Part shown: positions 2,997 through 10,148 of the stretch, in pieces
Layout of the letters: every line of letters begins with the position of its first letter
Position numbering within the stretch: the first letter of the stretch is position 1
Origin: Pseudonocardiales bacterium
GTDB lineage: Bacteria > Actinomycetota > Actinomycetes > Mycobacteriales > QHCD01
Length of the DNA stretch: 64,000 nucleotides
Direction of reading: 5' to 3'
Assembly: GCA_003244255.1 (NCBI GenBank)
Contig: QHCD01000029.1
Span: 1-64,000, forward strand
Translations under genes and position numbers: made by a program
Notes under the pieces: model-generated
Seen by the model: only the letters and a program-made list of their open reading frames with translations
What the model was told of the DNA's origin: nothing
Databases searched by the model: none

Positions 2997-3130
2997 CCTC
3001 GTAGACTACGCATCCGCCGTCGGACCTGGCATCGGTTCACGTCCTCGTCACGGCCGAGCTAACATGCACGTCAGCTTCTTAGAAGAGACGGCTTCCGCTC
3101 CTCAGATTGACATGAGGTACGTTCGGGGGC

Positions 3131-3710
3131 CTACACGCCGCGGTCGCGGAGACCGTCGGCGGCCTGGGCGTGGCGTTGTTTGCTGATCTCGGTGTAACCA
3201 GCGACCGAGCCGAGTCCGTGGTGGCCCAGGAATTCCGCGGTGAGGCGGGGGTCCGCCGATTTCTTCTTGGACGATGGTGCCGGCGGTGTGGCGGAAGCGG
3301 TGCGGGTGTAGTCCGCCGCTGACCTTGTTGCGTAGGCCGATGCGGGTGCAGATGGCTTCGGCGCCGCGGACGCTGAGTCGGCGGCCAGCGCGGCCGGGGG
3401 AGAGGCTGATGAACAAGGCGGGTGCGTCGTCGGTGCGGGCCGCGAGGTAGCGGTTCGTGATCTCTCGGGTCCGGTCGGTGATCACCACGGTGCGCTCGAC
3501 ATCGCCCTTGCCGCGGACTACGACCCGGTCGCCGCCCCAGGCGGCGCGGTCGACCGCGAGTGCTTCGGAGATGCGGCAGCCGGTGGAGACCGGGAACGCG
3601 ACGAGCGCGTGGTCGCGCAGCCCGGTGTCATCTAGTGACAGGTCGGCGCCGGCGGTGACGTTGGTGAGGTCCTGGCTGGTGTGGCTGCGCCCGCGTACGG
3701 TAGGCCGCGA
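3131..3710 (-). pseudogene. Tyrosine recombinase/integrase, catalytic domain, frameshifted
   Basis: Minus-strand reading shows the catalytic half of a phage-type tyrosine recombinase: Arg in TGCRISEAL, the HPHRFRHT box (HxxR), then, after a one-base frameshift at about 3255, GHHGLGSVAGYTEI with the last His and nucleophilic Tyr, ending at TAG (3131-3133). Without correcting the frameshift the ORF runs on to 3102 with a nonsense tail. The N-terminal core-binding domain is missing; sequence upstream of about 3710 looks unrelated. It is probably a relic of the element that brought in the neighbouring Abi gene. Confidence 0.75.
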
Positions 3711-3841
3711 CGCTCCGACCGGTCGCGATAAGAGCGCGGACTTGAGTATGTTGATTCGCGTAGACTCGCGAACGGGTTTGGACAGCGCCCAGCCCCCCGG
3801 GCAGAGCAATTTCTCGGGCGTCGACGTCGGCCGCCGCGGCC

Positions 3842-4554
3842 TTAGTGAGGGCGCCCCCGGAGAGTTGCCGTCACCCGCTGGCGCGAGGTGAACCACGTCT
3901 CGATTGTTAGGTCGACGGCGCGCAGGACAGCACGCATAGCGTTGACCTCGTTGTGTACTGTGCCGGAACGTAGCAACGGCTCGAGATGGGCGACGCGGTT
4001 GCGGAGACGGTAGATTCCATCAACCTGTTGGACGAGATGAACAGGCTTGACCGCCAAGTGCGGAAAGCTCTTCGCCAGAGCCTCGCGCCAGAGCAGCTGG
4101 CGACGAGGGTCCCGGCTGGGCAAGAGGAAGCGCCAGGTGCCAATTAGAGCTGGGCCAGCACATCGGGGTGTCCCGGTGCCCGGCCGCCAGGCTTGCCCAT
4201 TCTGAGCGCGGTGCGAGCCCGATCGGTCGCTTTCCCGATGTCGTTGCCGGCGAGCCGGGTCAGGAGGTGCGCTGGATCCATGAGCCAGTCGGCAGCGTGG
4301 GCTCGACCGGTCGAGGTGTCGATCTGGGTGGCGTTCCACGCCGACAATTGGGTATCCATCGCGTTGCGCAGCACGACTTCGAAGACGTGCAGCGCCTCAT
4401 ATACAGCGCCGGACAGGTCGACATTCCACTGGTACAGTCGCAGCGCATCCCTGACGTTGCCGCCGGTGGCCGTCAGGTAGGGACCCAGCCGCGGGAGGCT
4501 CAAGTGCGCGACGATGGCGACGACTCGGGGGTCCGGTTGAACTGTCGCTGCCAC
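3842..4554 (-). pseudogene. Abi-family (abortive infection) protein, frameshifted
   Basis: Two overlapping minus-strand frames form one actinobacterial Abi-family protein. The first 136 residues (LYQWNVDLSGAVYEALHVFE, then LRNAMDTQLSAW) end at a TAA about 4147. The family match resumes one base out of phase with GTWRFLLPSRD, LLWREALAKSFPHL and the diagnostic LRNRVAHLEP box near the C-terminus, ending at TAA 3842-3844. One missing base at about 4145-4150 explains the split. LRNRxAHxEP resembles the R-x4-6-H motif of HEPN-type RNases, but an enzymatic role is inference. A perfect hairpin lies 51 bases upstream of the start. Confidence 0.75.
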
Positions 4555-4604
4555 GGACGTACACTTTAGGGGAAGGCGGAGGCAGGTCTCTCCGTTACAG
4601 CTTT

Positions 4605-4643
4605 GATGAAGGCCCGGCGGTTCTCACCGTTCGGGCCTTCATC
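4605..4643 (-). ncRNA. Perfect long hairpin just upstream of the Abi gene (candidate structured RNA or attenuator)
   Basis: A 12-bp perfect stem (GATGAAGGCCCG at 4605-4616 with CGGGCCTTCATC at 4632-4643) carries an inner 4-bp stem (CGGT 4618-4621 / ACCG 4626-4629) and a TCTC loop. It lies 51 bases upstream of the Abi start on the minus strand, within its probable leader. Conserved RNAs upstream of abiF-type genes have been described (abiF RNA motif); membership here is inference. It has no U-run, which argues against a simple intrinsic terminator. Its transcript orientation is uncertain because the stem is symmetric. Confidence 0.4.
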
Positions 4644-5013
4644 CTGTCGGAGACGTTGCGCGTCGCCCCGCGAGTCTGTCGCCCAAGGGCCTGTCGTCCA
4701 AGGTGCGACGTACTGTCGAGCGACCGAGCCTGCCGCGGATGTTATGTCAGCTTATTAGGCCCCACGCGGGTGCCCAAGCCCGCGCTGGCCGCGGGGCCAC
4801 TTCACGCCATCAACATCTCCACGAGTGATACGCATCCGACGTGGATAGCTATCGGCGTGTGCTGGTCGCCCCGATGCCAGGGGTCCGGGCTGTAGGACAT
4901 CCGGCGGCGGACCGACGAGCCATCCCACTTCGGATAATCGCAGTTTCCCGCAGTGCCACCCGATGTCGCTGGGCTGGCTGCAATGAAAGCGATTTCGTGC
5001 CTTCGCCCCCTAC
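4644..5013. other. Intergenic, no gene recognised
   Basis: About 370 bases between the Abi hairpin and the ImmA/IrrE remnant. Nothing in six frames looks like a conserved protein. Confidence 0.45.
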
Positions 5014-5460
5014 CTAGAGCGTGACTCGGGGACGCGGGTCGAGGGAAGGCGCGAGCATTTCGCGGATATCGGTAAGTGGAAGTCCGCGGTCGGCGGAGAG
5101 GTCCTCAAGTGAGGTGCCATTTTTGCCGGCCACTTCAACGGCGCGAGCGAGGAGGGTTGGTCTCTCGGGAGGGCCGAGGTCACCTGGTTCTTGGGTGCGC
5201 CAGCGCCGTGCACTCATGGTTTTCATGGCTTGGGTGTAGAGCTCGGGCCTCAAGGTCTCCAGGGTGCTGGCGCGCTTGAGAAGCGCGGCGAGAGATACCT
5301 GCCACTTGGCTTTAAGCGCCAGCAGTCGATCCCAGTCCGGGCGTTGCGGTAGTTCATGGAGGATGTCGTGCCGTGGCATCAGGAATGCGGCCGCGAACTG
5401 GTGAGCTTGTGTTTCGGCTTGTTTGGTGCCGGCATCCTCATTCGTGTGCAGCACGAGGTG
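5014..5460 (-). pseudogene. ImmA/IrrE-family metallopeptidase, C-terminal remnant (CapP-like)
   Basis: The minus-strand frame ending at 5014 reads HLVLHTNEDAGTKQAE, then QAHQFAAAFLMP: the second half of the zinc-protease site and the following helix of ImmA/IrrE proteins, followed by a helical C-terminal region. The first half of the HExxH motif is absent: Asp-Asp replaces the expected residues right at 5461, where sequence switches to an AAA+ ATPase on the other strand. In CBASS, a divergent repressor plus ImmA/IrrE-type protease pair (CapH-CapP) controls the operon. Position and orientation fit a capP remnant; that is inference. The frame stays open past 5460, but the sequence there belongs to the AAA+ gene. 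Confidence 0.7.
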
Positions 5461-5733
5461 GTCGTCGAAATACCGATGCCCGACGAACAGGCTCGATTGT
5501 CGATCCTGCAGGCGACCGTAGCTGCGGTGATCGCGGCGTTCCCTGGGACCGCAGACCTTGCTCGACCCGGTGTCCTGGCCGAAGCCGCAGCAATCTCCGT
5601 GGGCCTTGACGCCCGGCGGTTGCGCAAGGCCGTCGCCGAGGCGTGCGCGTGGCGGCCGGAAGCCCAAGGCGACCCGTCCCGCGTGACGGGCGCCGATCTG
5701 CTCGCAGTCCTGAACCATGCAAGGAGTCAGTAA
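5461..5733 (+). pseudogene. AAA+ ATPase C-terminus (TRIP13/Pch2-like, Cap6 remnant)
   Basis: About 90 residues remain: VEIPMPDEQARLSIL, then EAAAISVGLDARRLRKAV and DPSRVTGADLLAVL, typical of the lid/C-terminal region of an AAA+ ATPase. Walker A, Walker B and all N-terminal sequence are gone, cut off at 5461 where the ImmA/IrrE remnant begins on the opposite strand. The downstream HORMA gene identifies this as the TRIP13-like remodeller (Cap6) of a HORMA-containing CBASS. The TAA at 5731-5733 overlaps the next ATG, so the original operon junction is kept. Confidence 0.7.
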
Positions 5734-6224
5734 TGACGGGATCGGTCGTGGTGCGTCGCATCGGTTCGGTGCCGGCACGGACCTCGATCGACACATGGCA
5801 GGCGATCGTGGCCACGATCGCCGAGCCGAGCAGCACCGCGCACGCCGCGCTGCTCGAAGCGACCGGTGTCGCGTCGATGCTGATCGCAGAGGCCTACACA
5901 CGTGATTTACCGATCGTGGTGACCCCGGCGTCGGGGCAACGGGTGCGCCTCTACACGGTGCACGGCGCTGACGCAGACGAGGCGATCGACGACGAGACAC
6001 CGTTGGCGACGTGGCCGACGACGGCGGCCGGGTGGACGGTGTCGTTGCCGTGCGCGGAGCAGGATCTCGCGTTCGCGTCCTCCGCACTCGCTGGCCTATC
6101 GGGGGTGTCCGTGCGCGACGCGGCGCTCGGGCTCGCCGTCGAATCCGACTCGGCTGCAGCCCATGCCGCCACCGTCACCGATGGGGCCATGCTGCGCGTC
6201 GACACCTCATGGTTGGAGAGCTAG
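5733..6224 (+). CDS. Unrecognised 163-aa protein inside the CBASS operon
   Basis: The start is fixed by an AAGGAG ribosome-binding site at 5721-5726 and a one-base overlap with the upstream stop; the TAG at 6222-6224 overlaps the GTG of the HORMA gene. The 163-residue product has no membrane segment or signal peptide, is rich in Ala, Thr and Asp, and looks like an alternating beta/alpha fold (RIGSVPARTSIDTWQAIVAT, GVASMLIAEAYTRDLPIVVT, RVRLYTVHG, GWTVSLPCAEQDL). I recognise no catalytic motif. Its place between the remodeller and HORMA genes suggests a CBASS accessory protein, perhaps a second HORMA-like or adaptor subunit. Unlike both neighbours, it is undamaged. Confidence 0.65.
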   Translation: MTGSVVVRRIGSVPARTSIDTWQAIVATIAEPSSTAHAALLEATGVASMLIAEAYTRDLPIVVTPASGQRVRLYTVHGADADEAIDDETPLATWPTTAAGWTVSLPCAEQDLAFASSALAGLSGVSVRDAALGLAVESDSAAAHAATVTDGAMLRVDTSWLES

Positions 6225-8201: not shown

Positions 8202-9056
8202 CTAGTCAGCCGCGGTGCCCGCGAGGAATGCTCGTATGGTTGCGACCGCTTCCCGGCGAAGCTGCGCGTGTGCCTCTCGGTCGTCGGGTGCGGCGAGGAA
8301 GTGTGCGTAGGCGGCTGGGCCGTCTTGTTCGATGTCGAGGAAGCGTTCGGCGAGCAGGGTGAGCGCTTCGATGACCTGTGGGTGACCGGCAATCGGGCTC
8401 GCGGCTGCAGCGACACCGGCGGCGTGGGGCCCACCGTGACTGTTGAGCAAGACGAAGACGAGGTCGTAGGCGTCCTTGTTCTCGTGGCGGTCTTGAAAGG
8501 CGAGGACCTTCAGCACGGTGTAGGGCACGGTGTTCGCGACGCGCACGGTGACGCGGGATCGGCCGCCGTTGTCGAGTCGTTCGGCTTCTATTTCGACGGG
8601 TTGGTAGTCGGCGGTGACGAGTTGTGCGCCGCGGACGTTGAACGCACCGAGGCCGGAGCCGACTGATTCGCCTTTGGGTTTGAAGATCCGTCCCGGTTCG
8701 ACGGCGTCGGTTTCGCAGAGGAACTCGACGATGACGGTGACTTCGTCGACTTGGCGTGTCCAGCGGAAGCTGCTCTCGGCGCGGAAGCCGCCTCGTTTGA
8801 GGTTGGTCTCCAACGTTCGATAGGTCTCAGGGACGGTGTCGCCGAGGGCGAGTCCGATGACCAGGTCGACGTCGGTTGTGCCGACGTGCGCCGGCACTCC
8901 TTCGGGGACAGTGCCGATCAGGTAGCGGGGTGCGAGTCCGCCGATGAGGTAGATCCGTTCGCTCCAGGGGCCGATGTCACCGAGCAGGGTGACCAGGGCG
9001 CGTTCGCAGCGGGCGGTGGCCTGCTGGGCGTAGTCGCTGAAGCTGTCGCGGCTCAT
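8202..9056 (-). CDS. AbiEii-like nucleotidyltransferase (putative toxin of AbiE-type pair)
   Basis: A 284-aa protein with the minimal nucleotidyltransferase core: a Gly-Gly loop (IYLIGGLAPRYLIG) followed by TTDVDLVIGLAL with the Asp-x-Asp metal pair, then helical sequence with DRHENKDAYDLVFVL, the hallmark of AbiEii/AbiGii toxins and related predicted transferases. The family modifies RNA or nucleotides; the target here is unknown. Its start overlaps the stop of the upstream AbiEi-like gene by four bases, so the two are translationally coupled. No lesion is visible. Confidence 0.75.
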   Translation of the reverse strand: MSRDSFSDYAQQATARCERALVTLLGDIGPWSERIYLIGGLAPRYLIGTVPEGVPAHVGTTDVDLVIGLALGDTVPETYRTLETNLKRGGFRAESSFRWTRQVDEVTVIVEFLCETDAVEPGRIFKPKGESVGSGLGAFNVRGAQLVTADYQPVEIEAERLDNGGRSRVTVRVANTVPYTVLKVLAFQDRHENKDAYDLVFVLLNSHGGPHAAGVAAAASPIAGHPQVIEALTLLAERFLDIEQDGPAAYAHFLAAPDDREAHAQLRREAVATIRAFLAGTAAD

Positions 9057-10081
9057 AGTTGCAGGATCTCCTGTCGGAGTCGGTCGGCTTGTTCGCGGCC
9101 GCGGCGGGGGTCACGCCGCAGGTCGTAGTAGAGCCGGTAGGGGTTGACGACCGTTAGTCCGTCTTGGTCGCGGTGAAACGCCAAGGGCGTGTCGTCCTGG
9201 GCTTGCAGGAGGACGAGGTTGTGGCCGGTGGGTAAGATTTCGGCGTCGATCGCGGCGGCGGCGAGGGTCGGGTCGGTGATCGCGGCGATCCAGATTTCGG
9301 TGACGGGTACCGCGGTAATGAACGGCGCTAGCCGGGCGGCGACCGCAGCGCCGGTCGCGGCATGTCCGATGTCGGCGCGGCGTAGGCCGGCGCCGGCCTC
9401 GGTGAGCAATTCATCAGGGGTGCGGGCCAGTCGATAGAGCTGGTGACGTTGGACGTGGCGGTCGGTCATCTCCTCGGCCCACAGATCCAGCAGTGCTGCG
9501 GGGTCGGTGATCGTGCGGGTGCGGCGCGGCCCGGCCCCGGTGGTTGTGGTGAGGTGTTCGGCGTCAAGTCGGGCCAGTACGCGGTGTGCCAGTGCGGGGG
9601 AGACGTCGGCGGTGTCGGCGAGATCCTGGACGCCCCAGGCCCGGTGGTGGTCGAGCAGCATGGCCTGTGCGACGACGCCGGCTTTCCCGGTGAGGCGGGT
9701 CGGGCGCGCCGGACCGGCTTGCCGGGTGGCCCGCAGGCCGGGGTCGGCGACATGCAGGAGCAAGCCGGGCAGTTCAACGTGGGCGTAGCCGGCGCCGTCG
9801 ATCAAGCCGATACCGTGCTTTTGCAGCAGCTCGCGGGCGTCCGCGGTGGCGTCTGCGGCGATCACGATCAGCGGGAGATTCTGACCAACCGTGATGTAGG
9901 CGAGCTGTCGAGCTGCCGCAACATTGAGGTGCCGCTTGGCTTCGACCAAGATCGGTTGTTCACGGTCGGCGAAGCGGATCATGAAGTCCGCCTTGTCGTC
10001 GCTGGCAGGAGTCACACGCACGTCTACGTTGGAGAGCGCACGGAGGATGCGAGCGGTCTCTGCTTCGAACCGCCCCACCAT
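9053..10081 (-). CDS. AbiEi-like winged-helix protein with PDDEXK-like N-terminus (putative antitoxin)
   Basis: From the ATG at 10081 (MVGRFEAETARILRAL) the product is 342 aa. The N-terminal domain contains DFMIRFADREQPILVEAKRH, an E-x-K pattern of restriction-endonuclease-like folds. A winged-helix segment follows (AWGVQDLADTADVSPALAHR), then a C-terminal region ending in YRLYYDLRRDPRRGREQADR. The order matches type IV antitoxins of the AbiEi class. The open frame extends to a TTG at 10144, but a palindrome at 10101-10117 lies in that extension and would make a natural operator upstream of the ATG. The gene is followed, with a 4-base overlap, by the nucleotidyltransferase. Confidence 0.7.
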   Translation of the reverse strand: MVGRFEAETARILRALSNVDVRVTPASDDKADFMIRFADREQPILVEAKRHLNVAAARQLAYITVGQNLPLIVIAADATADARELLQKHGIGLIDGAGYAHVELPGLLLHVADPGLRATRQAGPARPTRLTGKAGVVAQAMLLDHHRAWGVQDLADTADVSPALAHRVLARLDAEHLTTTTGAGPRRTRTITDPAALLDLWAEEMTDRHVQRHQLYRLARTPDELLTEAGAGLRRADIGHAATGAAVAARLAPFITAVPVTEIWIAAITDPTLAAAAIDAEILPTGHNLVLLQAQDDTPLAFHRDQDGLTVVNPYRLYYDLRRDPRRGREQADRLRQEILQL

Positions 10082-10100
10082 CTCTACCGTTGCAGCCTTA

Positions 10101-10117
10101 TTTACCACACCGGTAAA
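10101..10117. promoter_or_regulatory. Operator-like inverted repeat upstream of the AbiE-like pair
   Basis: TTTACC (10101-10106) and GGTAAA (10112-10117) form an inverted repeat with a 5-base spacer, 20 bases upstream of the ATG at 10081. It is in the right place for autoregulation by the winged-helix antitoxin. No experimental basis. Confidence 0.45.
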
Positions 10118-10148
10118 CATAGCTTTAACGGTGAATTCAGGCAACCGT

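Follow-up and report, generated by a model that had tools for sequence, protein, structure and literature searches.

The window analysed here is the stretch of 64,000 nucleotides at positions 1 to 64,000 of contig QHCD01000029.1 (assembly GCA_003244255.1) of a Pseudonocardiales bacterium. Near its left end, a disrupted Abi gene and a predicted small RNA gene are arranged back to back. The Abi gene (3842..4554, minus strand) encodes a putative AbiF/PD-T4-5-type HEPN protein, of which the N-terminal half lies in an ORF at 4144-4554 and the RLRNRVAHLEP sequence lies in another frame, from 3842 to about 4210. A first-pass annotation of this DNA had called the gene frameshifted, and a frame change together with an in-frame TAA near 4144 bears this out for the window copy, whereas relatives such as those in Kribbella sindirgiensis (L149) and Arthrobacter (L151-L157) are intact. 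The GTG start codon (4552..4554, minus strand) is also the candidate start of a leaderless Abi mRNA, 18 bp from the predicted start of the small RNA. The RNA element itself (4572..4648, plus strand) is 77 nt long, begins with GAAGGC and has a 3' end that probably falls near 4645; it is predicted to fold into two hairpins.

Several other genes surround this pair. A tyrosine recombinase remnant (3102-3896, minus strand; Phage_integrase, E 3.1e-14) lies directly downstream of the Abi gene, and with this neighbour the locus resembles a mobile element that has decayed. On the other side, a minus-strand gene at 5014-6087, whose N-terminus is fused or misread, contains an M78/IrrE-type peptidase domain (PADLOC RmrA, 129.6 bits; NCBIfam antitox_spr1629, 53.9 bits). 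Further along, adjacent minus-strand genes at 8202-10144 show weak AbiEii-like (E 0.002) and Mrr_cat (E 2.9e-5) matches and may represent a second defence or toxin-antitoxin pair.

Of 399 genomes sampled from the order, 95 carry a related Abi gene, and the closest relative found, from an Actinomycetes MAG (L105/L148), is 61% identical to the window protein. The HEPN R-x4-H motif reads RNRVAH in the window, in the second half of the gene, and its R, N, R and H are invariant in 39 relatives. The subclade to which the window protein belongs is marked by RNRVxH[M/L] and by an HPR..HDD insert. The PADLOC profile for PD-T4-5 matched an intact Kribbella relative (L149) with an E-value of 3.8e-14, the L105 relative with 2.7e-10 and the N-terminal fragment encoded in the window with 7.2e-5. 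The gathering score of Pfam Abi_2 (PF07751), 25.6 bits, was exceeded by one relative, L012, with 26.2 bits; other relatives scored 17-22 bits, and the window N-terminal fragment, at 14.7 bits, fell below it. A SAM-IV riboswitch, unrelated to the Abi gene, lies near the L012 homologue (L012:2892-3010, minus strand).

A protein profile search against PDB sequences revealed no clear homologue, and the link of the Abi protein to PbAbiF comes from fold comparison only. When the 61%-identical relative was modelled with AlphaFold (pLDDT 95.1), the top solved fold was 8vz6, the PbAbiF dimer with its ncRNA (Foldseek probability 0.99, E 0.03). In VIA, the comparison of the modelled relative with 8vz6 gave a Z of 11.7 and an rmsd of 4.2 over 216 residues, the next row standing at Z 6.3. 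By its HEPN motif, its PADLOC match and this modelled fold, the Abi protein is assigned to the AbiF/PD-T4-5 type of HEPN proteins.

Hairpin 1 of the RNA element (4605..4643, plus strand) is the one that had first been pointed out, a perfect stem of 12 bp with a further stem inside it, and it stands, as described, 51 bases from the Abi GTG at 4554. Five perfect stems of at least 12 bp are present in the 64-kb window, compared with 0-1 per 64 kb in dinucleotide shuffles. The hairpin had been said to sit alone in front of the gene; this description has to be given up, as the element also includes another conserved hairpin (4577-4594) and a pair of promoter-like hexamers (4537-4565). Hairpin 2 (4577..4594, plus strand) consists of a 5-bp stem, CGGAG/CTCCG, and the loop GCAGGTCT, with a conserved loop core of GCAGGT or ACAGGT. 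Relative to shuffles, the folding of the element region has a z of -5.0 on the minus strand and -6.1 on the plus strand, and the plus-strand fold of the element amounts to -42.1 kcal/mol. Hairpin 1 is terminator-like on the plus strand, with U-rich tails in many relatives, and is probably the 3' end of the small RNA too. A search of the organism's own genome returned a single strong match to the element (E 3.7e-16, the next best being 1.6e-3). This rules out the hairpin as a REP or a common terminator, one of the two findings that the first-pass annotation had named as fatal to its proposal.

A compact hairpin occurs upstream of most Abi homologues. A model of the main RNA class (R1) was built from 43 seeds chosen by their outer CCCC/GGGG arms, so that independent evidence for this class comes from the inner helices only. 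Within the R1 class, 94.1% of cells pair, two-sided changes are seen in seven pairs and the covariation score is 0.284, compared with 0.115 in shuffles. When the window was scanned with R1, its element was not found (8 bits, wrong strand); the window element thus belongs to another RNA class. A scan with the window protein subclade gave 77 named loci, and a two-hairpin element was common to their upstream regions. Two models, R2 on the Abi strand and R3 on the plus strand, were made from 23 relatives of this subclade with the window left out. In the held-out window, R3 matched 4571-4648 on the plus strand with 76.0 bits (E 3.6e-18), and R2 matched on the Abi strand with 73.8 bits (E 7.9e-18).

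The expectation that the stem would be conserved beside homologous Abi genes, with covariation, held for both hairpins, each of which carries compensatory changes among the 23 relatives. Hairpin 1 is paired in 87% of the relatives' cells, with two-sided changes in eight pairs, its inner pairs being imperfect at several loci, and hairpin 2 is paired in 100% of cells, with changes on both sides in three pairs. For the window class as a whole, the covariation score is 0.362 against 0.171 in shuffles, and 90.2% of cells are paired in the plus-strand model, compared with 85.2% in the Abi-strand model; register-shifted controls reached 39-54%. R2 matched no main-class member, and of the window subclade R1 picked up just two members, both from Nocardia and both weak. 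The cross-searches are thus nearly exclusive, so the RNA class follows the protein subclade.

The Rfam abiF model, RF03085, had been proposed as a check. It was run at a threshold of at least 37 bits and found no match in the window, in the relatives or in the organism's own genome, the own-genome search having no internal control; the positive control, phage phiC2, scored 37.6 bits. Rfam as a whole, searched with gathering and relaxed thresholds in the window and its relatives, gave sub-threshold matches at chance level only. The earlier suggestion of a new RNA class therefore stands, since the element is missed by the abiF model and differs in class from the abiF RNA. The two RNA families and their divergent layout appear to be new and are absent from Rfam; an earlier description in Zilberzwige-Tal et al. 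(2025) or Weinberg et al. (2017) is possible. A further conserved hairpin, GAAGAAGCCTCCCTC..GAGGGGGGCTTCCTTG, is found upstream of Abi genes of the window subclade in Mycolicibacterium/Mycobacterium (L203-L210, L212 and L222) and is possibly a third RNA class.

The hairpin had been placed in the leader of the Abi gene, as half of a possible RNA-Abi module. The partner gene was rightly named; the direction was wrong, as strand asymmetry and a promoter put the RNA on the opposite (plus) strand, divergent from the Abi gene. The reverse complement of the element, antisense to Abi, is the more stable strand in 24 of 24 loci. On the Abi strand, the mismatches of these 24 loci comprise 43 A-C and 15 G-U cells, and because A-C on that strand is G-U on the other, the RNA is expected on the opposite strand. 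A -35-like hexamer, TTGAAC (4537..4542, plus strand), lies inside the first codons of the opposite-strand Abi ORF, and a -10 hexamer, TACACT (4560..4565, plus strand), of the form TANNNT, follows 17 nt past it and 12 nt before the predicted 5' end of the RNA. This TTGAAC-17-TACACT promoter predicts an RNA start near 4572.

Similar hexamers recur across the family, and a divergent promoter is found at nearly every locus examined. TTG stands at a spacer of 17 or 18 in 20 of 24 loci, including the window. TANNNT is located 12-13 nt ahead of the conserved 5' GAAG in all 24 close relatives, at the matching place in 22 of 23 further clade members and, in the sister (main) class, 17-18 nt before the hairpin in 58 of 59 loci. 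A generic promoter consensus scan missed the window promoter because its thresholds were set for E. coli-like hexamers. On the Abi strand, promoters upstream of the element or hairpin 1 numbered 6, against 4.0 expected, and none stood at a fixed position in 60 loci. A sense-strand leader with AGnnTA as the Abi promoter was also considered and was overturned by the strand test and the fixed opposite-strand TANNNT. In the sister class, folding energies are equal on both strands and on the Abi strand there are only 5 G-U against 10 A-C cells, so the strand of that class rests mainly on the promoter. From these comparisons of sequence, a conserved, covarying two-hairpin RNA, predicted on the plus strand, divergent from the Abi gene and with its own promoter overlapping the Abi start codon, is well supported.

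The association of the RNA with Abi genes, which is repeated in many actinobacteria, was followed in two sets of genomes. R1 matched 53 places in 299 genomes of the order, and at 46 of them an Abi gene is no more than 250 nt away on the model strand. The other seven (L311, L316 and five more) are far from any detected Abi gene, and the two of these seven loci that were read carry no Abi remnant. In 27 genomes chosen for the window subclade, almost all strong R2 matches adjoin an Abi gene, the exceptions being solitary copies. Window-class RNAs with no intact Abi gene after them occur in Arthrobacter sp. B2a2-09 (L266:1501-1576) and Promicromonospora umidemergens (L289:1501-1578), and such copies may be stand-alone antitoxin RNAs or remnants. 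The RNA is single-copy at most loci. Tandem copies are found only in Antribacter: next to a broken Abi gene, Antribacter gilvus has one RNA at L288:1501-1578 and another 138 nt further along, and these too may be stand-alone antitoxin RNAs or remnants. Since the protein gene in the window is frameshifted, the window RNA is probably one left beside a dead toxin gene.

The spacing of the two predicted start sites is also conserved. In 18 of 24 loci, 18-20 bp separate an in-frame Abi start codon from the predicted 5' end of the RNA; in the window the distance is exactly 18 bp. A spacing of about 18 bp between divergent start sites marks bacterial bidirectional promoters (PMC10268837). The arrangement here resembles those promoters (Warman et al., 2021; PMC10268837) in that the predicted opposite-strand starts are 18-20 bp apart; it differs in keeping this geometry in different genera and in linking a putative toxin to its RNA. 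From the 18-bp spacing, the Abi mRNA would start at its own start codon, which suggests that the RNA and the Abi mRNA do not overlap. A weak sense -10 (NAGNNT) is present at a fixed offset in 19 of 24 loci of the window group and is unclear in the sister class; it is consistent with a leaderless Abi mRNA, with both start sites being predicted ones.

Characterised AbiF systems suggest what such an RNA might do. AbiFCd is neutralised through direct binding by RCd22, which bears two abiF motifs (PMC12373285), and PbAbiF is inhibited by AbiFr, according to a review (PMC12737573). Characterised AbiF loci have their RNA ahead of abiF and on the same strand (PMC12373285), so the analogy is not a precise one. 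With somewhat better than even confidence, the locus type is read as an AbiF-like HEPN gene with a small RNA gene as its divergent partner, in which the RNA would be the antitoxin of the module. Antitoxin of a HEPN RNase in phage defence is the most likely role by this analogy, because of the AbiF fold, the HEPN motif, the linked RNA and the co-variation of RNA class with protein subclade. One near-symmetrical promoter would also start a leaderless Abi mRNA in the other direction, and the two transcripts would thus not overlap. The RNA would then bind the Abi protein and block its HEPN RNase in the manner of a type III antitoxin, as in the homologous AbiF/AbiFr and AbiF-RCd22 pairs. Phage infection might halt transcription or remove the RNA, upon which the RNase would be freed and growth would stop. 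A fuller version of this proposal is more speculative and is offered as doubtful: the near-symmetrical promoter would fire either the RNA antitoxin or the leaderless HEPN toxin mRNA, exclusive binding of polymerase would set the ratio of RNA to toxin, at least two RNA families would have diversified together with the AbiF-like proteins of Actinomycetota, and the solitary copies would be stand-alone antitoxins.

The main rival to the antitoxin reading is a cis-antisense role, similar to type I systems, in which the RNA would pair with a longer Abi mRNA begun beyond it and block translation or cause termination. In its favour, the RNA lies antisense to the sequence ahead of the Abi ORF, two antisense RNA families, sar and ctRNA_pGA1, gave weak plus-strand matches below threshold, and the conserved hairpin loop would lend itself to kissing interactions. 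However, the start-site geometry speaks against a longer mRNA, since the 18-bp spacing implies that the Abi mRNA begins at its own start codon, and the Abi strand has no conserved promoter upstream of the element in the 60 loci scanned. Further, an antisense role needs neither a conserved loop nor a link to the protein subclade, yet both are observed. This role is thus disfavoured and regarded as unlikely.

The remaining alternatives are less probable again. The loop and the 5' sequence are conserved (GAAG, GCAGGT/ACAGGT), hairpin 2 covaries too, and solitary copies have persisted where there is no Abi gene; all this makes it improbable that the element is a promoter with an intrinsic terminator only, yielding a short terminated divergent transcript or an insulator with no RNA function, even though hairpin 1 is terminator-like on the plus strand and many relatives have U-rich tails. 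A cis-acting leader of the Abi mRNA on the minus strand, acting as an attenuator or a protein-binding leader, would agree with an element conserved at its place 51 nt ahead of the start codon and with stems that can form on both strands; the strand asymmetry and the opposite promoters in essentially every locus leave it a slim chance. Slimmer still is that of a guide or sensor RNA, which the HEPN protein would use as a guide or phage-sensing cofactor in a step towards Cas13-type systems. AbiF has been proposed as an ancestor of Cas13 (PMC12165695, PMC12737573), and RNA class and protein subclade do go together, but the RNA has no variable spacer-like segment and is compact and structured throughout, with conserved loops.

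The antitoxin reading places the module beside several known systems. Like the abiF RNA/AbiFr systems (RF03085; AbiFCd-RCd22 of C. difficile and PbAbiF-ncRNA, 8vz6), it would combine an AbiF-fold HEPN protein with a short structured RNA adjoining it. In contrast, the RNA here is divergent, whereas the known RNA is upstream and co-directional, as in the phiC2 control, and it differs further in its internal loops, its second hairpin, its mostly single copy and its lack of an RF03085 match. Type III toxin-antitoxin systems (ToxIN, CptIN and TenpIN) offer another analogy, in that the proposed RNA antitoxin would inhibit an RNase toxin by direct binding. In those systems, the RNA is a repeat array that precedes the toxin gene in one operon and is separated from it by a terminator. 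The present RNA is a single divergent one without a repeat array, and the predicted toxin fold is HEPN and not ToxN-like. By the PADLOC profile, the Abi protein also falls in the same family as PD-T4-5 of E. coli, which the passages devoted to it describe as distantly related to AbiF/D and as giving a toxin-antitoxin-like abortive defence (Vassallo et al., 2022; PMC9519451). Those same passages name no RNA partner for PD-T4-5 (PMC9519451), and its host belongs to another phylum.

Cas13 is discussed as having its root in AbiF-type HEPN proteins that have RNA partners. If the antitoxin reading is true, the loci described here would add two new RNA families and would mean that the RNA partner of such a protein can be divergently encoded and has co-evolved with it. 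They would also provide a large natural series on how RNA recognition changes from antitoxin to guide.
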